Positions 943 through 57,006 are shown, counted from the first letter of the stretch. The stretch: DNA of 64,000 nt from Syntrophomonas sp. DTU019 (GCA_913757435.1 CAJYDM010000003.1:248001-312000), one strand, 5' to 3'. Program-made: numbers and translations. Notes: generated by a model from the letters alone, not told the origin.

Positions 943-2514
943 GTGAAGGGGTGGCCGATGTATCAAGAATTACAGCAGCTAAAGGAGATGGGGCTTAATA
1001 AATCACAAGTTCAACGGCAGTTGGGCATAGATTGGAAAACAGTTGATCGTTATTGGGAGGTGACGCCAGACGAATATGACGAAATAAGAAAAAACACAAA
1101 AAGAACCAGAAAGCTTGAAAAATACGAAGAACAAATTGTGAGGTGGTTACAGGAACATCCCGACATGTCATCAGCACAAATACAAGATTGGCTTAAAAAG
1201 CATTATTTAGATTATCAGGGAAAGGAGAGAACGCTTAGACGATTTATCAGGAGTTTACGGATTCAGTATAACATTAAGAAGCCTATTATCCAGCGTCAAT
1301 ACCAAGCAGTGGAAGAACTGCCCATGGGTTATCAGGCACAAGTAGATTTAGGTTTTACCACCCTGGTAAATACCCAGGGGCAGCGGGTAAAGCTCACAGG
1401 ATTTGGGCTGGTTCTCTCACACAGCCGTTATAAATATGTTGAATGGGACGATAAGCCACTTACAGCAGCCAGATTCATACAGGTGCATTATCGGGCCTTT
1501 GAATACATAGGAGGGGTGCCAGAAGAAATTGTGTACGATCAGGACAGGCTCCTGGCTATAAACGAAAACTTTGGGGATATCATATACACAGCAGAATTCG
1601 AGAGATTCCGGCAGCAGATGGGTTTTAAGATATATCTTTGCCGCAAAAGTGATCCGGAGACCAAGGGCAAAATTGAGGCAGTTATCAAATATGCCAAAGG
1701 CAACTACGCCAGGCACCGGATATTTGACAACATTCAAGCATTTAATCAGGGGTGTATAGAATGGCTGAACAGAACAGCAAACGCCAATATACATGGCACA
1801 ACAAAAAAGGTACCGGCAGAAGTGTTTAAAGAAGAACAAAAACACTTAAAACCGATACCGACCATAATTAATCAACCTGAAGAAATTATAACAAGACAGG
1901 TACGCAAAGACAATATCATTTGGTACAACAGCAACCGATATACTTTGCCCCTGGGCACTTACCATCCTGAAAGAGAAGTGAAGATTAAAGCAGACCAGGG
2001 CATACTAATCGTTTTTGACCTTGAAACCGATGAAGAGCTGGCCCGTCATGAAATATCTCTGGATAAAGGCCGATTGATCAGGAATAACAATCATAAACGC
2101 GACCATTCTGCCCGGATAGCCGAATTATATCAAGATACCCTGGCCAATATGGGAGGAAGTGAAATAGCAGCTGTTTTCCTCGATGGTATTCGTAAAGAAA
2201 AACCCAGATATGTTCGTGACCAGTATAATCTCATTATCCAAACGATTAAAAATTACTCTTTGGAAACAATATCCCAGGCATTAGATTATTGTGTGGAAAG
2301 GAGTATTTTTAGCGCAGTTGAATTCAAGACCGCCCTGGAGTATTTTGCCCAGCAAAACAACAGCCCGGCGGAAACTATACTTGATACGTCTGCCATACCT
2401 CTTGCCTATCGGATTAAAACCGAGATCAGAAATATTAGCGAATACGCCGCTATTTATGGAGGTATGAGTATTGAACAAGGCCGAAGAAACCAGGACTTAT
2501 TTAAGAAGCCTTAA
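943..2514 (+). CDS. istA: IS21 transposase IstA, copy 1
   Basis: 523 aa transposase that cuts and joins the element ends. It has an N-terminal helix-turn-helix (KSQVQRQLGIDWKTVDRYW), then an integrase core with the acidic triad visible in AQVDLGF, VYDQDR and GKIEAVIKY. The C-terminal beta domain resembles the Mu transposase C part (IIWYNSNRYTLPLGTY). GTG start at 943 behind GAGGAGAGG. Overlaps istB by 44 bp, the usual istAB arrangement. It differs from copy 2 only at one residue that I found (LKKHY here, LKQHY there), so the duplication is recent. Confidence 0.95.
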   Translation: MKGWPMYQELQQLKEMGLNKSQVQRQLGIDWKTVDRYWEVTPDEYDEIRKNTKRTRKLEKYEEQIVRWLQEHPDMSSAQIQDWLKKHYLDYQGKERTLRRFIRSLRIQYNIKKPIIQRQYQAVEELPMGYQAQVDLGFTTLVNTQGQRVKLTGFGLVLSHSRYKYVEWDDKPLTAARFIQVHYRAFEYIGGVPEEIVYDQDRLLAINENFGDIIYTAEFERFRQQMGFKIYLCRKSDPETKGKIEAVIKYAKGNYARHRIFDNIQAFNQGCIEWLNRTANANIHGTTKKVPAEVFKEEQKHLKPIPTIINQPEEIITRQVRKDNIIWYNSNRYTLPLGTYHPEREVKIKADQGILIVFDLETDEELARHEISLDKGRLIRNNNHKRDHSARIAELYQDTLANMGGSEIAAVFLDGIRKEKPRYVRDQYNLIIQTIKNYSLETISQALDYCVERSIFSAVEFKTALEYFAQQNNSPAETILDTSAIPLAYRIKTEIRNISEYAAIYGGMSIEQGRRNQDLFKKP

Positions 2515-3106
2515 CCTTTCCTGGTGCAGAGACAACCTGGATCAAACCCTGCAGACAGCAAGCAGTACCGACATATCCTATCTGGATTTTCTTAACCGGC
2601 TGCTGCAGGGAGAGATAAACTACCGTGAAAAAAGATCTGAAGAGCGCCGGATGAAGATGGCGGGGTTTCCCTTTGTTAAAAGCATAGATGAATTCGATTT
2701 TGCATTTCAGCGTTCTATTACCCGTAAACAGGTTAATCAATTGCTGGATATGCAATGGATTGAGAAGTTCTACAATCTGATTTTCCTTGGGCCTCCGGGA
2801 GTGGGGAAAACTCATTTGGCTGTAGCTATCGGGCTTGAGGCTGTGAAAAAAGGTTACAAGGTAAGCTTCGTAAATATGGATGATTTAATCAAGCATCTTA
2901 AGCTGGAAACTACCTCAACCCGGAGCCGCCAGAGGATGAAACGGATCATGGCTTCAGATTTAGTGGTAATTGATGAGATAGGTTTTGTCCCCATTACCAG
3001 GCAGGAAGCTAATTTGTTTTTTCAATTGATATCATCACTTTATGAACAGACGGCCTTAATAATAACTTCAAACAAGGGTTTTGAAGACTGGGCCGAATTG
3101 ATGTAA
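2471..3106 (+). pseudogene. istB: IS21 helper ATPase IstB, copy 1, truncated by inversion
   Basis: 211 codons against 249 in copy 2. It starts at TTG 2471 behind GGAGGT. Walker A (GPPGVGKTHLA) and Walker B (LVVIDEIGF) are intact, but the reading frame stops just after GFEDWAEL because the following 171 bp are inverted and supply a TAA. The lost C-terminal 38 residues include the end of the AAA+ domain, so activity is doubtful, though the intact IstB of copy 2 could act in trans. Confidence 0.9.
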
Positions 3107-3400: not shown

Positions 3401-4972
3401 GTGAAGGGGTGGCCGATGTATCAAGAATTACAGCAGCTAAAGGAGATGGGGCTTAATAAATCACAAGTTCAACGGCAGTTGGGCATAGATTGGAAAACAG
3501 TTGATCGTTATTGGGAGGTGACGCCAGACGAATATGACGAAATAAGAAAAAACACAAAAAGAACCAGAAAGCTTGAAAAATACGAAGAACAAATTGTGAG
3601 GTGGTTACAGGAACATCCCGACATGTCATCAGCACAAATACAAGATTGGCTTAAACAGCATTATTTAGATTATCAGGGAAAGGAGAGAACGCTTAGACGA
3701 TTTATCAGGAGTTTACGGATTCAGTATAACATTAAGAAGCCTATTATCCAGCGTCAATACCAAGCAGTGGAAGAACTGCCCATGGGTTATCAGGCACAAG
3801 TAGATTTAGGTTTTACCACCCTGGTAAATACCCAGGGGCAGCGGGTAAAGCTCACAGGATTTGGGCTGGTTCTCTCACACAGCCGTTATAAATATGTTGA
3901 ATGGGACGATAAGCCACTTACAGCAGCCAGATTCATACAGGTGCATTATCGGGCCTTTGAATACATAGGAGGGGTGCCAGAAGAAATTGTGTACGATCAG
4001 GACAGGCTCCTGGCTATAAACGAAAACTTTGGGGATATCATATACACAGCAGAATTCGAGAGATTCCGGCAGCAGATGGGTTTTAAGATATATCTTTGCC
4101 GCAAAAGTGATCCGGAGACCAAGGGCAAAATTGAGGCAGTTATCAAATATGCCAAAGGCAACTACGCCAGGCACCGGATATTTGACAACATTCAAGCATT
4201 TAATCAGGGGTGTATAGAATGGCTGAACAGAACAGCAAACGCCAATATACATGGCACAACAAAAAAGGTACCGGCAGAAGTGTTTAAAGAAGAACAAAAA
4301 CACTTAAAACCGATACCGACCATAATTAATCAACCTGAAGAAATTATAACAAGACAGGTACGCAAAGACAATATCATTTGGTACAACAGCAACCGATATA
4401 CTTTGCCCCTGGGCACTTACCATCCTGAAAGAGAAGTGAAGATTAAAGCAGACCAGGGCATACTAATCGTTTTTGACCTTGAAACCGATGAAGAGCTGGC
4501 CCGTCATGAAATATCTCTGGATAAAGGCCGATTGATCAGGAATAACAATCATAAACGCGACCATTCTGCCCGGATAGCCGAATTATATCAAGATACCCTG
4601 GCCAATATGGGAGGAAGTGAAATAGCAGCTGTTTTCCTCGATGGTATTCGTAAAGAAAAACCCAGATATGTTCGTGACCAGTATAATCTCATTATCCAAA
4701 CGATTAAAAATTACTCTTTGGAAACAATATCCCAGGCATTAGATTATTGTGTGGAAAGGAGTATTTTTAGCGCAGTTGAATTCAAGACCGCCCTGGAGTA
4801 TTTTGCCCAGCAAAACAACAGCCCGGCGGAAACTATACTTGATACGTCTGCCATACCTCTTGCCTATCGGATTAAAACCGAGATCAGAAATATTAGCGAA
4901 TACGCCGCTATTTATGGAGGTATGAGTATTGAACAAGGCCGAAGAAACCAGGACTTATTTAAGAAGCCTTAA
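3401..4972 (+). CDS. istA: IS21 transposase IstA, copy 2
   Basis: 523 aa and full length, essentially identical to copy 1 with Gln in place of Lys in LKQHY. It has the same GTG start and ribosome binding site, the same HTH and the same DDE-type triad (QVDLGF, YDQDR, KGKIEAV). It is the only istA next to an intact istB in this window, so it is the likely source of active transposase. Confidence 0.95.
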   Translation: MKGWPMYQELQQLKEMGLNKSQVQRQLGIDWKTVDRYWEVTPDEYDEIRKNTKRTRKLEKYEEQIVRWLQEHPDMSSAQIQDWLKQHYLDYQGKERTLRRFIRSLRIQYNIKKPIIQRQYQAVEELPMGYQAQVDLGFTTLVNTQGQRVKLTGFGLVLSHSRYKYVEWDDKPLTAARFIQVHYRAFEYIGGVPEEIVYDQDRLLAINENFGDIIYTAEFERFRQQMGFKIYLCRKSDPETKGKIEAVIKYAKGNYARHRIFDNIQAFNQGCIEWLNRTANANIHGTTKKVPAEVFKEEQKHLKPIPTIINQPEEIITRQVRKDNIIWYNSNRYTLPLGTYHPEREVKIKADQGILIVFDLETDEELARHEISLDKGRLIRNNNHKRDHSARIAELYQDTLANMGGSEIAAVFLDGIRKEKPRYVRDQYNLIIQTIKNYSLETISQALDYCVERSIFSAVEFKTALEYFAQQNNSPAETILDTSAIPLAYRIKTEIRNISEYAAIYGGMSIEQGRRNQDLFKKP

Positions 4973-5678
4973 CCTTTCCTGGTGCAGAGACAACCTGGAT
5001 CAAACCCTGCAGACAGCAAGCAGTACCGACATATCCTATCTGGATTTTCTTAACCGGCTGCTGCAGGGAGAGATAAACTACCGTGAAAAAAGATCTGAAG
5101 AGCGCCGGATGAAGATGGCGGGGTTTCCCTTTGTTAAAAGCATAGATGAATTCGATTTTGCATTTCAGCGTTCTATTACCCGTAAACAGGTTAATCAATT
5201 GCTGGATATGCAATGGATTGAGAAGTTCTACAATCTGATTTTCCTTGGGCCTCCGGGAGTGGGGAAAACTCATTTGGCTGTAGCTATCGGGCTTGAGGCT
5301 GTGAAAAAAGGTTACAAGGTAAGCTTCGTAAATATGGATGATTTAATCAAGCATCTTAAGCTGGAAACTACCTCAACCCGGAGCCGCCAGAGGATGAAAC
5401 GGATCATGGCTTCAGATTTAGTGGTAATTGATGAGATAGGTTTTGTCCCCATTACCAGGCAGGAAGCTAATTTGTTTTTTCAATTGATATCATCACTTTA
5501 TGAACAGACGGCCTTAATAATAACTTCAAACAAGGGTTTTGAAGACTGGGCCGAATTGATGGGAGACCCGGTTATAACTACCGCTATCCTGGATCGAATC
5601 GCTCATCATAGTGAGATATTCAATCTGACCGGCGACAGTTACCGCCTTAAACATCGAGATTCTATACTAAGACTGTAG
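4929..5678 (+). CDS. istB: IS21 helper ATPase IstB, copy 2
   Basis: 249 aa AAA+ ATPase related to DnaC, the target-selection partner of IstA. Walker A GPPGVGKTHLA lies near residue 105 and Walker B LVVIDEIGF near 165. The C-terminus ([20 protein letters not shown]) follows the family pattern and is the part missing from copy 1. TTG start behind GGAGGT, overlapping istA by 44 bp. Confidence 0.95.
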   Translation: MNKAEETRTYLRSLNLSWCRDNLDQTLQTASSTDISYLDFLNRLLQGEINYREKRSEERRMKMAGFPFVKSIDEFDFAFQRSITRKQVNQLLDMQWIEKFYNLIFLGPPGVGKTHLAVAIGLEAVKKGYKVSFVNMDDLIKHLKLETTSTRSRQRMKRIMASDLVVIDEIGFVPITRQEANLFFQLISSLYEQTALIITSNKGFEDWAELMGDPVITTAILDRIAHHSEIFNLTGDSYRLKHRDSILRL

Positions 5679-35379: not shown

Positions 35380-35610
35380 TAGCTATAAACGATGAGCAGA
35401 AGAGTAGCTGCACAGCTTGACTGAAGAGAGCCGGGGAAAGGTGAGAACCGGTGTGGGCTGACAGTGAAGGCCACCTGCGAGTTCCGGTTAAATACCACCA
35501 GGTAGAAAGCCGGACGGCATTGCCGTTAACAATATGAAGCCGGGCTGAGGCCAATTAGGGTGGTACCGCGGGAGCAACTCTCGTCCCTTGAGGATGAGGG
35601 TTTTTTTATT
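35380..35610 (+). promoter_or_regulatory. T-box riboswitch, specifier GCC (alanine)
   Basis: The T-box AGGGTGGTACCGCGG lies at 35557-35571. The terminator CTCGTCC/GGATGAG followed by seven T's is at about 35580-35608. Stem I has the conserved GATGAG...AGAGTAG and AGAGAG elements. Aligned from both sides to the glyQS-type arrangement GAAx-codon-A...GAG, the specifier is GCC at 35470-35472, so uncharged tRNA-Ala should allow read-through. A GGC reading at 35469 (glycine) is the alternative. Downstream genes are alaR-alaT, which supports alanine. Confidence 0.9.
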
Positions 35611-49935: not shown

Positions 49936-50409
49936 TTGTCAGACCTAATATGATGGTTCTGCCGGAACAGATTGAGGCTATGGGTGGCTATGTGCTGGCT
50001 ACCTACTATTTGCAGACTGCAAGAGAAGTGGATATTGTTAAAAAGATCGCTTCAATTGCTATCGAACAAACCACCGGCACCTGGGTGGCGGTGCCAGAAA
50101 GACCCTGAGGGTGAGGAGAAATATGTTGCCAAGGTAGTGGGATTTACGAGGTGCCTGGCAATGAATATGAGGTGCCGAAATGGCAGGATACACGCGAGTG
50201 GGTGTTCCAACTGGCTTTCCCGGCAGTAAATTTCGGCCCGCAGATCCCCATGCTATTGTCCACCATAATCGGCAACATTTCATGATCGGCCCGCTAAAAC
50301 TTTGGATATCAAGTTTCCTGCAGATTTTCTGGCACAGTTTAAAGGTCCTAAATTCGGGTAGCAGGGTTCGCGAACTTCTGGGGTTTATGACCGGCCGCTA
50401 TTAAACAAC
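49936..50409 (+). pseudogene. RuBisCO-like protein, N-terminal half, multiple frameshifts
   Basis: AAGGAGGAG at 49921 serves TTG 49936 (MSDL...). Translation is readable in pieces as a RuBisCO large-chain N-domain: GGYVLATYYLQT, IAIEQTTGTWVAVPE, EEKYVAKVVG, IYEVPGNEYEVPKWQDTREW, VNFGPQIPMLLSTIIGNIS, LDIKFPADFLAQFKGPKFG, VRELLG. Each step needs one missing base restored. I count nine deletions (near 49946, two near 50101-50105, 50140, 50281, 50302, 50358, 50365, 50383), and no insertions or random stops otherwise. Either a young pseudogene or sequence error. Confidence 0.8.
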
Positions 50410-51243
50410 ATGATCAAGCCCTGTACCGGATACACCCCTGAAGTGGGATGCCGACTGTTTTCCAGAGCGGTCGAAGGAGGGGTGGATATTATTAAAGATG
50501 ATGAACTGATTGCCGATCCGCCTTTCAATCCCCGTCAACAGCGCATCAAATTATATATGGAGGCTATTCGGCAGCATTATGAAGCGACCGGGCACAAGGT
50601 TTTGTACACCCCTAACATTACGGACAATGCCTTGAAGGTTCTAGACAATGCTAAAAGAGCTATCGACGCAGGGGCTAATGCCATCATGATAAACTACCTC
50701 ACAGTTGGCATTTCCGCCATGCAAGACCTGGCAGAAAATCCTGAAATCAACATCCCCATAATGGCCCATCTTGACTTTGCCGGAACCATGTATGAATCGC
50801 CGGTATCGGGGATGAGTTCCTATCTCATTCTGGGCAAACTGGCCCGACTGGCCGGAGCCGATATGGTGGTATTCCCCAGCCCCTTCGGCAAATTCCCGCT
50901 CTTGAGGGAACGTTATCTGCAAATCGGACACCATTTGGAAAACCCCTGGTGCCACATCAAACCGGTATTCCCCATGCCGGGCGGCGGAGTCATGCCCAAC
51001 TGCGTTCATGCCATCTATCGCGATCTGGGAGCTGACAGCATCATAGGCTGCGGCGGCGCTATCCACGGCCATCCCATGGGGCCAGTCGCAGGGGCCCGGG
51101 CTATGCGCCAGGTGATCGATGCCGCAGTGGCAGGGATTTCTCTGGTGGAAGCAGGCAAACAGCATCCCGAATTGCAAGCTGCCATAGATGCCTGGGGCCT
51201 CATGGAAGAGGAAGAGGCTGGCATCTTTGATATAAAAGGTTAA
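50410..51243 (+). CDS. RuBisCO-like protein (form IV), C-terminal domain
   Basis: 277 aa open stretch holding the TIM-barrel half. MIKPCTGYTPEV is the KPxxG substrate lysine motif, GGVDIIKDDE the carbamylated Lys-Asp-Asp-Glu metal site, NITDNALKVLDNAKRAIDAGANAIM typical of RLPs, PSPFGKFPLLRE the loop-6 Lys, and CGGAIHGHPMGPVAGARAMRQ the phosphate site. The loop usually SGG is PGGG, so it should not be a true RuBisCO carboxylase. RLPs act as enolases, isomerases or transcarboxylases of sugar acid phosphates. The real gene starts at 49936. Confidence 0.85.
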   Translation: MIKPCTGYTPEVGCRLFSRAVEGGVDIIKDDELIADPPFNPRQQRIKLYMEAIRQHYEATGHKVLYTPNITDNALKVLDNAKRAIDAGANAIMINYLTVGISAMQDLAENPEINIPIMAHLDFAGTMYESPVSGMSSYLILGKLARLAGADMVVFPSPFGKFPLLRERYLQIGHHLENPWCHIKPVFPMPGGGVMPNCVHAIYRDLGADSIIGCGGAIHGHPMGPVAGARAMRQVIDAAVAGISLVEAGKQHPELQAAIDAWGLMEEEEAGIFDIKG

Positions 51244-51258
51244 GGAGGAAAGTCTGTA

Positions 51259-52107
51259 ATGGCAAAACAATATTCCCGCGAAGAGGTAAAAGCACGTTTG
51301 AAAGCAGTGACTGATGCTGGCAAGCCCATCATCATAGCCGGTGCCGGCACAGGTATTTCTGGCAAATTTAGTGAACAGGGCGGAGTGGACCTGATCGGGA
51401 TCTACAATTCCGGATTATTCCGCATGGACGGCAAAGGCTCTTTGGCAGGCCTTATGCCCTATGGAGATGCCAACCAAATAGTAATCGATTTGGCCCACCG
51501 GGTATTTCCGGTGATTAAAGAGACCCCCATGATAGCAGGCATTTGCGGAACCGATCCCACTAGAGAGATGCGCCCTTACTTGACCCATCTGCAGCATCTG
51601 GGTTTTTCGGCCATAATGAATTTCCCCACCGTAGGCCTGATTGACGGCCGATTCCGCCAGGAACTGGAAGACACCGGTATGGGATATGGGGTGGAGATAG
51701 AAACTCTCAAGATCGGTAAGGAATTGGGTTTGTTTACCCTGGGATACGCTTTTAATGTCGAGGAGGCACGCCTGGTAGGGCAAGCCGGACTGGATGTGCT
51801 GATTTGCCATATGGGTTTGACGGCCGGAGGTTCGATCGGCTCCAAGTATGCTGAAAATAAACTCACCCTGGAGAGGTCGGCTGATTTGATTAATGAAATG
51901 ACCAAAGCAGCCCGGCAAGGCTATAAAGAGATAATGATTTTCTCCCATGGTGGTCCCATTGCCTATCCGGAAGATACTCGCTATATCTACGAACACACTG
52001 ACTCCATCGGATTTTTGGGGGCATCCAGCATTGAACGCATTCCCATTGAAGTGCCGTTGAAACAAGCCTGTCAGGAGTTCAAGAATATACCAATTAAAAA
52101 GCAGTAA
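51259..52107 (+). CDS. PEP-hydrolase-like TIM-barrel protein, first copy
   Basis: 282 aa of the phosphoenolpyruvate hydrolase-like TIM-barrel family: IIAGAGTGISGKFSEQGGVDLIGIYNSG, LMPYGDAN, AGICGTDPTREM, GFSAIMNFPTVGLIDG, HMGLTAGGSIG, SHGGPIAYPEDT. The family is normally found beside, or fused to, Tm-1-like proteins. 15 bp after the RLP gene with AAGGAGG upstream, so in the same operon. Catalytic activity has not been settled for bacterial members; acts presumably on a small keto/enol phosphate. Confidence 0.85.
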   Translation: MAKQYSREEVKARLKAVTDAGKPIIIAGAGTGISGKFSEQGGVDLIGIYNSGLFRMDGKGSLAGLMPYGDANQIVIDLAHRVFPVIKETPMIAGICGTDPTREMRPYLTHLQHLGFSAIMNFPTVGLIDGRFRQELEDTGMGYGVEIETLKIGKELGLFTLGYAFNVEEARLVGQAGLDVLICHMGLTAGGSIGSKYAENKLTLERSADLINEMTKAARQGYKEIMIFSHGGPIAYPEDTRYIYEHTDSIGFLGASSIERIPIEVPLKQACQEFKNIPIKKQ

Positions 52108-52118
52108 ACCGTGCAGCA

Positions 52119-52146
52119 CTGAGAGCTGGGTCGATCCAGCTCTCAG
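52119..52146 (+). repeat. Perfect 11-bp hairpin inside the RLP operon
   Basis: CTGAGAGCTGG (52119-52129) pairs with CCAGCTCTCAG (52136-52146), loop GTCGAT. No T-run. Lies between the first TIM barrel and the ComB-like gene; may adjust expression within the operon. Confidence 0.55.
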
Positions 52147-52208
52147 CTGGCTACAATACCGCATTAGAAAACGGGGTATGTGTTATTAAAAAAGATTCGT
52201 CGCTCAGC

Positions 52209-52949
52209 GTGGATACTGTGCTATCCATACGAGAATATGACTCTGCCACAAATGACAGCGTCGGTATTGTAATCGACGTGATCAGGGCTAGCAGCACTAT
52301 GGTCACACTGCTTGACCAGGGTTGCCAGAGAGTGTACACCCTGGCCGCACCGGACGCCACCAGGAAGCTGGCAAAAGAACGAGGCATGCTAACCAGCGGC
52401 GAATGGCAGGGAATAAAACTGAAAGGGTTTGATATGGAGAACTCCCCTGCGGAAGTGTTGTGTCATCCGGTGCGAAACCGAGAAGTTGCGCTCTGTACCA
52501 GCAACGGCACTCGGGTGATCGAGACTGCCCGGGGATGCCTGGAGTTATTCATCGGCTGCCTCCTAAACGCCCGGGCTTGCGTAAGTGCCGCCATTATCAC
52601 CGCACAAGCGGCTCAATGCGAGATCACAATTGTCTGTGCCGGTCAATATGGACGCTTTGTACTCGATGACGCTTACTGCGCGGGATATCTGTTGATGGAA
52701 ATGGAGAAAGCAGCGGCCGAATCAGGATTTGTTTTACGATTCTCAGATGCTTCCAAGGCGGCTCGAAAACTGGTCGAGGCTTACCCTGATGCCCGGACGG
52801 CTTTTAAAGAATCGGCCAGCGGGCAGCGTCTGCTGGAGATAGGCGGTAATGAAGATTTTGAATACTGTCTGCAAACCAACCTGTCAGCGGCGGTGCCGCA
52901 AATGAAAGTGGAGCAAAATCTGATTTGGTTTGATGATTGGAACCAATGA
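52209..52949 (+). CDS. 2-phosphosulfolactate phosphatase family protein (ComB-like)
   Basis: 246 aa. GIVIDVIRASSTMVTLLDQG, LTSGEWQGIKLKGFDMENSPAEV and ALCTSNGTRVIETA match the ComB family, Mg-dependent phosphatases with the archaeal member acting in coenzyme M synthesis. A clostridium is not expected to make coenzyme M, so a different phosphorylated hydroxy acid is likely. GTG start, no good ribosome binding site seen. Third gene of the RLP cluster. Confidence 0.85.
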   Translation: MDTVLSIREYDSATNDSVGIVIDVIRASSTMVTLLDQGCQRVYTLAAPDATRKLAKERGMLTSGEWQGIKLKGFDMENSPAEVLCHPVRNREVALCTSNGTRVIETARGCLELFIGCLLNARACVSAAIITAQAAQCEITIVCAGQYGRFVLDDAYCAGYLLMEMEKAAAESGFVLRFSDASKAARKLVEAYPDARTAFKESASGQRLLEIGGNEDFEYCLQTNLSAAVPQMKVEQNLIWFDDWNQ

Positions 52950-52974
52950 CAATCATGAAAAGGAGAGCGATAAC

Positions 52975-54315
52975 TTGGCTAATGCACAGATTATAGTGGC
53001 CGGAATACTGGACACCAAAGGAGAAGAGATCAAATTCCTGGCGGAGCGGGTAAGAGCGGCCGGAGGGAAGGCTACAGTGCTTGAACTGAGCGTCGGGCAT
53101 GAGGTCGGCTGGGCTGATATCAGCCTCAGTGAAGTAGTCAAAAGGGAAGGTAAAAAGATAGAGGACATCTTCGCCCTGGACCGGAAATTAGCTTCTGACC
53201 TGGTGGCCAGTGGCGCTATCAAACTGGTCAAGGAAATGTTTCAGGACGGCGCAGTAGATGGAATCATCGCTTATGGCGGTTCCATGGGGGCCAGCATCGC
53301 CACCCGGATTATGCAGGCTTTGCCGATAGGAGTTCCAAAAATAATGCTGACCACTATGGCCTCAGGGGACGTGGCACCATATGTGGGCACCAGTGATATT
53401 TGTATGATATATCCTATAGCGGAAGCCGGACTTAATAAAGTAACCCGGCAAATACTCAACAATGCCGCCGGGGCTGTTGTTGGCATGGCATCCGCACCTG
53501 AAATGGAAGGCATCCAGGACAAACCGCTGATCGGATGTATGATGTTTGGAGTCACCACCCCCTGTGTACTGAGAGCTTCATCCATAATCGAAAAGGATGG
53601 CTATGATGTCATAATCAACCATGCCGTTGGGAGCGGAGGACGTTCCATGGAAGATTTGATTCGGGATGGCTATATAACCGGCATGCTGGACATCACTACC
53701 CATGAGATCGGTGATGAGATGCTGGGAGGGGTCTTAGGAGCCGGGCCGCACCGCATGACGGCTGCAGGTGAGATGGGTATTCCCCAGGTAGTGGCACCCG
53801 GTGGTCTGGATTTGATCAACTTCGGACCTAAAAGCACTGTGCCGGAAAGGTTGCTCAAAGAGACTGATCAGCCGGGAAGAGGATTGTATGAACATAATCC
53901 CACTGTTACCTGTATTGGGGTATCAATGGATGAAGTCTATAGAATCGGGGAGCATATGGCCGACAAGCTGAATGCCGCCAGGGGGCCCAGTGTACTCTGC
54001 GTGCCCATGCGGGGTTGGGGGGCCTGCGATCTGGCCAGCCCGGACATTGAACTCGGTTGGGCGGGACCCGGAGCCGGGCCGGTTTGGGCGGCAGACAGCC
54101 AGAATCCCGAATGGTCACGGCGCTCAGTGGAATATGTAAAAGCCCTCAAGGCGAAAATCGATGCTAACAAAGACAATCTCGAAGTGATTCTGGTGGATAA
54201 ACACATGAATGACCCGGTATTTGCCGACTTGATGGCGGGTCTTTTATTAGAAATGCTGAATGGCACCTGGCGTAAAGGCAGCAAATCCGATTTACAGTAT
54301 ATAATACCGTTTTGA
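52975..54315 (+). CDS. Tm-1-like ATP-binding domain protein (UPF0261)
   Basis: 446 aa from TTG 52975, behind AAAGGAGAG (52958). IIVAGILDTKGEEIKFLAERVRAAG, IAYGGSMGASIATRIM, KIMLTTMASGDVAPYVG, VGTSDICMIYPIAEAGLNKVTR, and C-terminal CVPMRGWGACDLASPDIELGWAG. The plant member Tm-1 binds ATP and inhibits a viral replicase; bacterial ones are unassigned and regularly pair with PEP-hydrolase-like barrels, as here. Part of the RLP operon. Confidence 0.88.
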   Translation: MANAQIIVAGILDTKGEEIKFLAERVRAAGGKATVLELSVGHEVGWADISLSEVVKREGKKIEDIFALDRKLASDLVASGAIKLVKEMFQDGAVDGIIAYGGSMGASIATRIMQALPIGVPKIMLTTMASGDVAPYVGTSDICMIYPIAEAGLNKVTRQILNNAAGAVVGMASAPEMEGIQDKPLIGCMMFGVTTPCVLRASSIIEKDGYDVIINHAVGSGGRSMEDLIRDGYITGMLDITTHEIGDEMLGGVLGAGPHRMTAAGEMGIPQVVAPGGLDLINFGPKSTVPERLLKETDQPGRGLYEHNPTVTCIGVSMDEVYRIGEHMADKLNAARGPSVLCVPMRGWGACDLASPDIELGWAGPGAGPVWAADSQNPEWSRRSVEYVKALKAKIDANKDNLEVILVDKHMNDPVFADLMAGLLLEMLNGTWRKGSKSDLQYIIPF

Positions 54316-54341
54316 TCGTGCTTTCTAGGAGGATTGGTGTA

Positions 54342-55181
54342 TTGGCGGTACAATATTTGCGCAATGAAGTAGTACAGCGGCTGAGGGATGAATCCAATCG
54401 AGGCCGGTCTTTGCTTATGTTCGGAGCCGGAACCGGATTAACTGCCAAATGCGCTGATCTGGGTGGCGCTGACCTGGTGGCAGTTTATTCCACGGCTAAA
54501 TGCCGAATGATGGGATTGCCCACCTTACTTGCCTGGATGCCCTATGATGACTGTAATGACCGGGTTAGAGAAATGGCCCTGGAGATCCTTCCAGTGGTCA
54601 AGGAGGCACCGTGCATTGCAGGCATTGGTGCCCACAACCCGGCTATCAAGCTGGAGAACATCATTGATGAAATGCTGATGCTAGGCTTTTCTGGGATCAC
54701 CAACGAGCCTTTTGCGGGGCTGTACGGAGTACAATTCGCCCGGCAATTAGAGGACGCCGGGATCGGTTTCAGCCGCGAGGTGGAATTGATAAAGACCGCA
54801 CATCAGATGGATGTGTTCACCGTTGCCTGGGCTTTCAATGAAACCGAAGCCGGCATTATGGCAGAAGCTGGCGCTGATGTGATCGGAGCCATCGTGGGGG
54901 TAACCAGCGGTGGTCTTACCGGGGCCAAAGAGGTATTGACATTGGAGTCGGCCACCTCTGAAGTTCAGAAAATGTGTGCTGCCGCTCGCAGCGTAAACCC
55001 GGAGGTTTTAGTTTTGACCCATGGCGGTCCTTTTGCCGATGTGGATACGGCACAGTATTCCATTGTAAATTCTGACGCTGATGGATATGCCTCCGGATCA
55101 AGCGGGGAGCGTACCCCAACCGAAAATGCGGTTATAGCTATAACCAGGGAATATAAAAATATTTCTAAAACCGCGCCTTGA
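54342..55181 (+). CDS. PEP-hydrolase-like TIM-barrel protein, second copy
   Basis: 279 aa from TTG 54342 with AGGAGGA 8 bp upstream. Same family as the gene at 51259: LLMFGAGTGLTAKCADLGGADLVAVYSTA, AWMPYDDCNDRVRE, AGIGAHNPAIK, GFSGITNEPFAGLYG, THGGPFADVDT. Clearly diverged from the first copy (for example ICGTDPT there, IGAHNPA here), so the two probably use different substrates or form a heteromer. Last gene of the RLP operon. Confidence 0.85.
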   Translation: MAVQYLRNEVVQRLRDESNRGRSLLMFGAGTGLTAKCADLGGADLVAVYSTAKCRMMGLPTLLAWMPYDDCNDRVREMALEILPVVKEAPCIAGIGAHNPAIKLENIIDEMLMLGFSGITNEPFAGLYGVQFARQLEDAGIGFSREVELIKTAHQMDVFTVAWAFNETEAGIMAEAGADVIGAIVGVTSGGLTGAKEVLTLESATSEVQKMCAAARSVNPEVLVLTHGGPFADVDTAQYSIVNSDADGYASGSSGERTPTENAVIAITREYKNISKTAP

Positions 55182-56675: not shown

Positions 56676-56815
56676 AAAATCGGCCATTCTCAAGCTAAAT
56701 TCCGGACAGACTTGCCGGAAGCGGGGGAACCAATATTGGGGTGAATCCAGTTTATCTGGTAGGGCCACCCACAGCCCGAATCCGTCAGCTAACCTCGCCA
56801 GCGTTTTCAGGGGGA
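56676..56815 (+). promoter_or_regulatory. c-di-AMP riboswitch (ydaO/yuaA class)
   Basis: Conserved blocks GCGGGGGAACCA, TTGGGGTGAATC, GTAGGG, GCCCGAATCCGTCAGCTAAC and CTCGCCAGCG occur in the right order and spacing. This class turns genes off when c-di-AMP is high and controls osmolyte and K+ uptake or cell wall genes. The next gene is opuAA, in agreement. A downstream A/T-rich inverted sequence ending in CCCTTTTT (about 56826-56884) may be the expression platform. Confidence 0.88.
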
Positions 56816-57006
56816 GAATGGGGAATTGAATTCCTTCTTAATTAAAAGCCTGCATAATTCTCAATTGAAGGTGTTTCCCTTTTTCCTAAATTACTTCGGT
56901 GATATTAATTGGTTCGAATGGTCACCTTATTAATGAACGACCGGTTGCATTATGCATACGGGCTATATTTCTTTGCTATTAAGCGAGAAATGAAGGAAGG
57001 GATGTA

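Follow-up and report, generated by a model that had tools for sequence, protein, structure and literature searches.

A conserved syntrophomonad operon of a RuBisCO-like protein, a ComB-family protein, a UPF0261 protein and two PEP_hydrolase-family barrels

RuBisCO-like proteins (RLPs) show how RuBisCO chemistry has been reused, and to our knowledge reactions are known for only a few of them. We present here an operon from Syntrophomonas sp. DTU019 in which an RLP gene is followed by genes for a ComB-family protein, a UPF0261 (Tm-1-like) protein and two PEP_hydrolase-family barrels, PEPH1 and PEPH2. It occupies positions 49936-55181 of a 64,000-nucleotide stretch (GCA_913757435.1 CAJYDM010000003.1:248001-312000), called the window below. 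The operon is real, conserved and undescribed; its exact chemistry we infer.

Operon structure and conservation

All five families were confirmed above their Pfam cut-offs, bearing out an original prediction, made from the DNA alone, of five closely spaced genes in this order on one strand, here the plus strand. The RLP gene (RuBisCO_large, 172 bits; cut-off, 30), the sole RuBisCO-family gene found in the genome, starts with TTG at 49936, just downstream of the Shine-Dalgarno sequence AAGGAGGAG. Its N-terminal domain (49936..50361) is broken, and its C-terminal catalytic TIM-barrel domain (50362..51243) is open, with the longest ATG open reading frame (ORF) at 50410-51243. PEPH1 (51259..52107), a TIM barrel of 282 residues, follows (PF09370, 355 bits; cut-off, 34), then the ComB-family, or 2-phosphosulfolactate phosphatase-like, protein of 246 residues with a GTG start (52209..52949; 2-ph_phosp/ComB, PF04029, 208 bits; cut-off, 26). 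The two-domain UPF0261 protein has 445 residues (52978..54315; alternative start, 52930) and scores 173 and 224 bits to the N- and C-terminal Pfam domains (cut-off, 27) and 418.6 bits to NCBIfam NF002674 (cut-off, 335). PEPH2, the second TIM barrel (54342..55181; alternative start, 54312), reaches 303 bits to PF09370.

We searched 81 genomes, 58 of them from the same order, and defined as a carrier any genome encoding this RLP at >50% identity. Fourteen of the 58 are carriers, with the constant order RLP-PEPH1-ComB-UPF0261-PEPH2, a constant strand and median gaps of 1-83 bases; G011 and G048 have no ComB, and in G029 the operon is split across two contigs. ComB is present in 12 of the 14 carriers and in none of the 44 non-carriers of the order (Fisher p 1e-10), always within the operon or at its edge, and UPF0261 in 14/14 versus 2/44 (p 1e-11); these p-values overstate independence, as the genomes compared are related. 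Among 84,980 species genomes, a wider scan found 80 loci with close RLPs, and the five-gene order recurs in about 17 Syntrophomonadaceae-type genomes. UPF0261 stands at 29 of the 80 loci, each time with a PEPH gene. ComB stands at 18: 16 are syntrophomonad-type with UPF0261 after ComB, one (L059) is ended by a contig edge, and one is from Caldisericota. In Oscillospiraceae, Candidatus Formimonas, Desulfoscipio and gut Bacillota the operon has four genes, ComB being absent.

The Caldisericota locus (L068) encodes, in a row, SorC, RLP, UPF0261, PEPH, DUF1097, an acetamidase/formamidase-family protein, a second PEPH, an alcohol dehydrogenase and ComB. In a quick tree of the RLPs, which contains no DeepYkr reference, the syntrophomonad proteins form one starred clade (22 rows), those of other Clostridia a second (14 rows) and kinase-linked RLPs a third (43 rows), and the L068 protein branches outside all three.

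The neighborhood comparison upholds the prediction that the five families belong together, with order and strand kept in many genomes; the genes form a conserved unit, so a single pathway is likely. No paper in the searched literature assigns an RLP/PEPH/ComB/UPF0261 cluster to a pathway, in agreement with the prediction of a route not yet described.

Separately, two genomes of the same family (G003 and G033) encode a shorter, more distant RLP of about 373 residues and 32% identity (L034 and L035), with KDDH instead of KDDE in L034. A candidate RLP fusion protein in L123 (999-residue ORF) was dropped, because a shadow ORF seems to make up its N-terminal part.

The broken RLP gene of the window

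As to the predicted form IV RLP gene, the family assignment stands and an intact, full-length gene does not: the reading frame is broken from 49936 to about 50361, the N-terminal domain being spread over three frames with stops. The RLP of the window was aligned with those of G001 (Syntrophomonas sp. DTU019) and two more relatives: between 49946 and 50374 it is missing nine bases, spread over six or seven places, with zero insertions, and no insertion or deletion relative to G001 occurs in the rest of the RLP, PEPH1, UPF0261 or PEPH2. The relatives' RLPs are intact (438-501 residues), and the G001 orthologue is 90% identical to the open C-terminal part. Changes at codon positions 1, 2 and 3 number 22, 13 and 64 in the broken part and 30, 15 and 133 in the C-terminal part, the third position dominating as in the other genes. 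Because it dominates in both parts, the damage is either recent or an assembly fault, and this genome either lacks the RLP step or is misassembled at the RLP N terminus.

It is possible, if on the unlikely side, that the operon is decaying here, the RLP being a recent pseudogene and the pathway lost or RLP-independent. The confinement of all nine deleted bases to the N-terminal 460 bases of the RLP is in keeping with this. Against it, the third-position pattern and the strong constraint on the C-terminal part point to damage that is recent or an assembly error, and clustered deletions with no insertion at all resemble a local assembly fault. Decay would concern the window copy and is compatible with the pathway proposed below for the relatives.

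Active site and subfamily of the RLP

Of the form I RuBisCO residues, E60, T65, W66, N123, K175, K201, D203, E204, H294, K334, G381 and G403 are retained in every intact RLP checked, and G404 in all but two; K177, R295 and H327 are replaced in every one. The C-terminal part of the window RLP keeps K175, K201, D203, E204, H294 and K334. We take the retained set to serve metal binding, enolization, CO2 handling and the first phosphate, and the lost set to bind the second phosphate. Since the first phosphate site is kept and the second lost (R295/H327/S379 reads L/V/G in the operon subfamily with ComB), the substrate would carry a single phosphate.

The L/V/G site sets these proteins apart from RuBisCO types I-III, and a RuBisCO_large domain with some catalytic and substrate residues replaced places them in form IV. 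The RLP scores below the cut-offs for type III RuBisCO (261.6 versus 497), RuBisCO in general (256.6 versus 438) and the RLP OiaX (NF042437, 198.9 versus 700 bits), and a full-length orthologue, P0001, misses both MtnW cut-offs (NF007095, 395.5 versus 409; TIGR03332, 338.5 versus 513.6). At the N123 position all intact orthologues checked have Asn and Bacillus MtnW has Lys, presumably the general base of MtnW. Plain MtnW identity is rejected on the missed equivalog cut-offs together with this Asn. As judged from its sequence, the operon RLP is a distinct form IV subfamily.

Two other RLPs invite comparison. OiaX (3-oxo-isoapionate-4-phosphate decarboxylase) is annotated for a phosphorylated beta-keto acid and likewise keeps K334; it is only 29% identical to the operon RLP and pairs with a four-carbon-acid-sugar kinase. 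DeepYkr, the RLP of the methylthioadenosine (MTA)-isoprenoid shunt, has a cupin methylsulfurylase as its operon partner (PMC5893883). A 5-methylthioribulose-1-phosphate 1,3-isomerase, it may share with the operon RLP an oxygen-independent chemistry on a ketose-1-phosphate and is set apart by its gene partners, which in our operon are PEPH, UPF0261 and ComB.

UPF0261 and the PEP_hydrolase-family barrels

The predicted fold of PEPH1 matches 2p10, annotated as a putative phosphonopyruvate hydrolase (Z 36.1; root-mean-square deviation [rmsd], 1.9 over 254 residues). "PEP_hydrolase" is an annotation name, and hydrolysis of phosphoenolpyruvate or phosphonopyruvate is putative. PEPH1 and PEPH2 form separate orthologous groups, 34-39% identical to each other, with 47 invariant columns in common in an alignment of the operon copies. 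The UPF0261 model (predicted local distance difference test score, 88.5) matches Tm-1 (3wry, Z 28.4) and the Novosphingobium UPF0261 protein Saro_1862 (9mpy, Z 26.7); rmsd values of 14-16 over 370-380 residues indicate two domains that are differently placed. Saro_1862 was crystallized with acetovanillone, an aryl ketone.

UPF0261 and PEP_hydrolase co-occur at 97.4% (PMC5028733). The two families are likewise adjacent in plant and fungal Tm-1-like proteins and in bacterial pairs (Rhizobium, Vibrio, haloarchaea and Thermomicrobium), and in Thermomicrobium they adjoin PEP/pyruvate-binding and PEP-utilizing proteins; the operon differs in adding a second, separate PEPH, the RLP and ComB. The genome of the window also has a separate, generic UPF0261-PEPH pair (G000:C2:123545-125590, locus L135), whose members have 40% and 52% identity to their operon counterparts.

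In the Hpe pathway for acetovanillone the substrate is phosphorylated, carboxylated and dephosphorylated, and the beta-keto acid is then cleaved (PMC9618137). The operon resembles this Hpe/Acv system by analogy only, in step order and in the binding of acetovanillone by a UPF0261 protein (9mpy), and has no biotin carboxylase or two-component kinase. Novosphingobium F199 has no VceA or VceB homologues, its beta-keto acid step being unassigned (PMC11837543); a role of UPF0261 in that cleavage is possible.

The ComB-family protein and other phosphoesterases

The ComB core is conserved (D23, R26, E65, NGT 99-101, N120, C143 and D154), and the GER motif reads GEW in the window protein and the two other Syntrophomonas ComBs aligned. 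ComB diverges faster than its neighbors, with 58-64% identity to the window where PEPH1, UPF0261 and PEPH2 keep 78-91%. Other phosphoesterases appear where ComB is absent: a PHP phosphoesterase lies near the operon in five loci, every time with SorC, and a HAD hydrolase lies directly 3' of PEPH2 in L084. The PHP genes may go with the regulator and not with the pathway.

Proposed pathway

We propose, with somewhat less than even confidence, that the operon encodes one anaerobic pathway in which the RLP acts on a mono-phosphorylated keto-compound, ComB dephosphorylates the product and UPF0261 and PEPH cleave it. The intact RLP of the relatives would enolize, then rearrange or (de)carboxylate, a keto-compound bearing one phosphate; the ComB-family phosphatase would remove that phosphate; and UPF0261 with the two barrels would split the resulting beta-dicarbonyl, whether beta-keto acid or diketone, to yield two small acids. 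A phosphorylated keto or hydroxy compound had been predicted as the substrate, and this fits the families. We count in favor of a single pathway the conserved gene order and the restriction of ComB and UPF0261 largely to carriers. Also in favor are the rearranged Caldisericota locus, which joins RLP, UPF0261, two PEPH genes and ComB with an RLP from outside the clostridial clades; the other phosphoesterases where ComB is absent; the pattern of retained and replaced RLP residues; the SorC and GlpP-like regulators beside the operon in relatives, both types with phosphorylated ligands; the acetovanillone in 9mpy; and the Hpe step order (PMC9618137).

Several points weigh against this proposal. 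The RLP of the window's own genome is broken as assembled; the syntrophomonad-type carriers L054, L057 and L064 have no ComB, with no obvious substitute listed; acetovanillone may be present in 9mpy as an inhibitor or a bystander; and the searched literature holds no assay of any PEPH or UPF0261 family enzyme.

Alternative pathways

An O2-free salvage of methionine (or 5'-deoxyadenosine) is a doubtful alternative. MtnA would make 5-methylthioribulose-1-phosphate, the RLP would replace MtnW or the DeepYkr isomerase, ComB would replace MtnX, and UPF0261 and PEPH would replace the O2-requiring dioxygenase step. The nearest characterized sequences are MtnW proteins (2oek, E 3e-89), the nearest solved structures are 2oek, 2zvi and 3fk4, and an RLP beside a separate phosphatase gene parallels mtnW-mtnX of Bacillus methionine salvage; loss of the second phosphate site would suit a C1-monophosphate. 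The RLP nevertheless falls under both MtnW cut-offs, has Asn where MtnW has Lys, and keeps E60, T65 and K334; ComB is from another family than MtnX; and neither aci-reductone dioxygenase nor any other mtn gene was detected in the operon or identified beside any copy of it. MtnA is present in 14/14 carriers, but also in 39 of the 44 non-carriers; nearly universal in the order and not tied to the operon, it was set aside as uninformative.

It is less probable still that the RLP is a working carboxylase for a monophosphate, a RuBisCO in the wide sense, so that CO2 is fixed onto a ketose phosphate ahead of the cleavage step. K334, N123 and E60 are retained, along with every other residue of the CO2 chemistry, unlike in MtnW; R295 and H327 are, however, lost in all members, scores stay below the cut-offs for type III and general RuBisCO, and because OiaX, annotated as a decarboxylase, also keeps K334, this residue does not reveal the direction of the reaction.

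A sulfonate route, in which the operon would make or degrade phosphosulfolactate, draws on ComB family membership and name and on the family fold and most core residues shared with 2-phosphosulfolactate phosphatase (1vr0), and is very improbable: ComA (PF02679) was found in none of the 14 carriers by a search that detects it in Bacillus subtilis and Methanocaldococcus jannaschii, the window ComB lies below all NCBIfam equivalog cut-offs (best, 145.3 versus 330; TIGR00298, 141.3 versus 175), its GER motif is altered, and every ComB of the order lies within the RLP operon or at its border. With no ComA in any carrier, a role of ComB in making sulfolactate is improbable, as is action on phosphosulfolactate, which the original prediction named for its family, and the sulfolactate/coenzyme M route was rejected.

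Regulators, transporters and a sister clade

The prediction that no transporter or regulator lies in the operon is correct for the window; in relatives, SorC-type genes stand beside 8 UPF0261-bearing loci, GlpP-type antiterminator genes directly upstream of the RLP in 5, and an ABC transporter adjoins the operon in single loci. An internal substrate, as had been suggested, is therefore not established. SorC- and GlpP-type regulators respond to phosphorylated sugars or glycerol phosphate, and their presence beside the operon points to a phosphorylated substrate.

An FGGY sugar kinase adjoins the RLP in 35 of 51 loci without UPF0261, mostly from Chloroflexota and archaea, and is missing from every UPF0261-bearing locus; near the kinase-linked RLPs lies a saccharopine-dehydrogenase-like protein (17 loci) or a class III aminotransferase (11 loci). 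With this kinase in the sister clade, a phosphorylated sugar-like substrate is likely for the subfamily as a whole. The sister-clade RLPs, from Chloroflexota, Baldrarchaeota and other groups (L071, L077, L082, L103 and some 30 further loci), form a second conserved RLP cluster, for which we know of no described pathway. L102 and L119 have two RLP copies and L101 one, all with an FGGY kinase, a small membrane protein and a SorC regulator; in L102, from the cultured Caproiciproducens faecalis, a GlpA-like FAD oxidoreductase follows. A minus-strand ORF of 598 residues in L102 matches no Pfam family; L119 has its FGGY kinase at this place, and the ORF probably overlies such a kinase.

Other features of the window

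Positions 943-3106 and 3401-5678 are tandem copies, apparently of one two-gene mobile element (first 30 residues identical in both ORFs). A T-box leader (103 bits) lies at 35383-35591, and a cyclic di-AMP riboswitch (96.6 bits) at 56683-56818, upstream of an ABC transporter operon resembling those for glycine betaine/proline uptake.

Significance

We also raise, as a speculative and rather unlikely generalization, that a new RLP subfamily of Clostridia, Chloroflexota, Caldisericota and some archaea (de)carboxylates a single-phosphate substrate in RuBisCO-like fashion and in anaerobes supplies a complex in which UPF0261 and PEP_hydrolase-like proteins cleave C-C bonds. The retained CO2-chemistry residues, the lost second phosphate site and the fixed gene partners narrow the candidate reactions. 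Bacteria, fungi and plants commonly encode UPF0261 and PEP_hydrolase-like proteins, Tm-1 of plants among them, and through the durable association of these proteins with an RLP and a phosphatase their enzyme function can be approached directly. If the proposal is true, it would provide a catalytic function for the protein family to which Tm-1, a plant antiviral protein, belongs.

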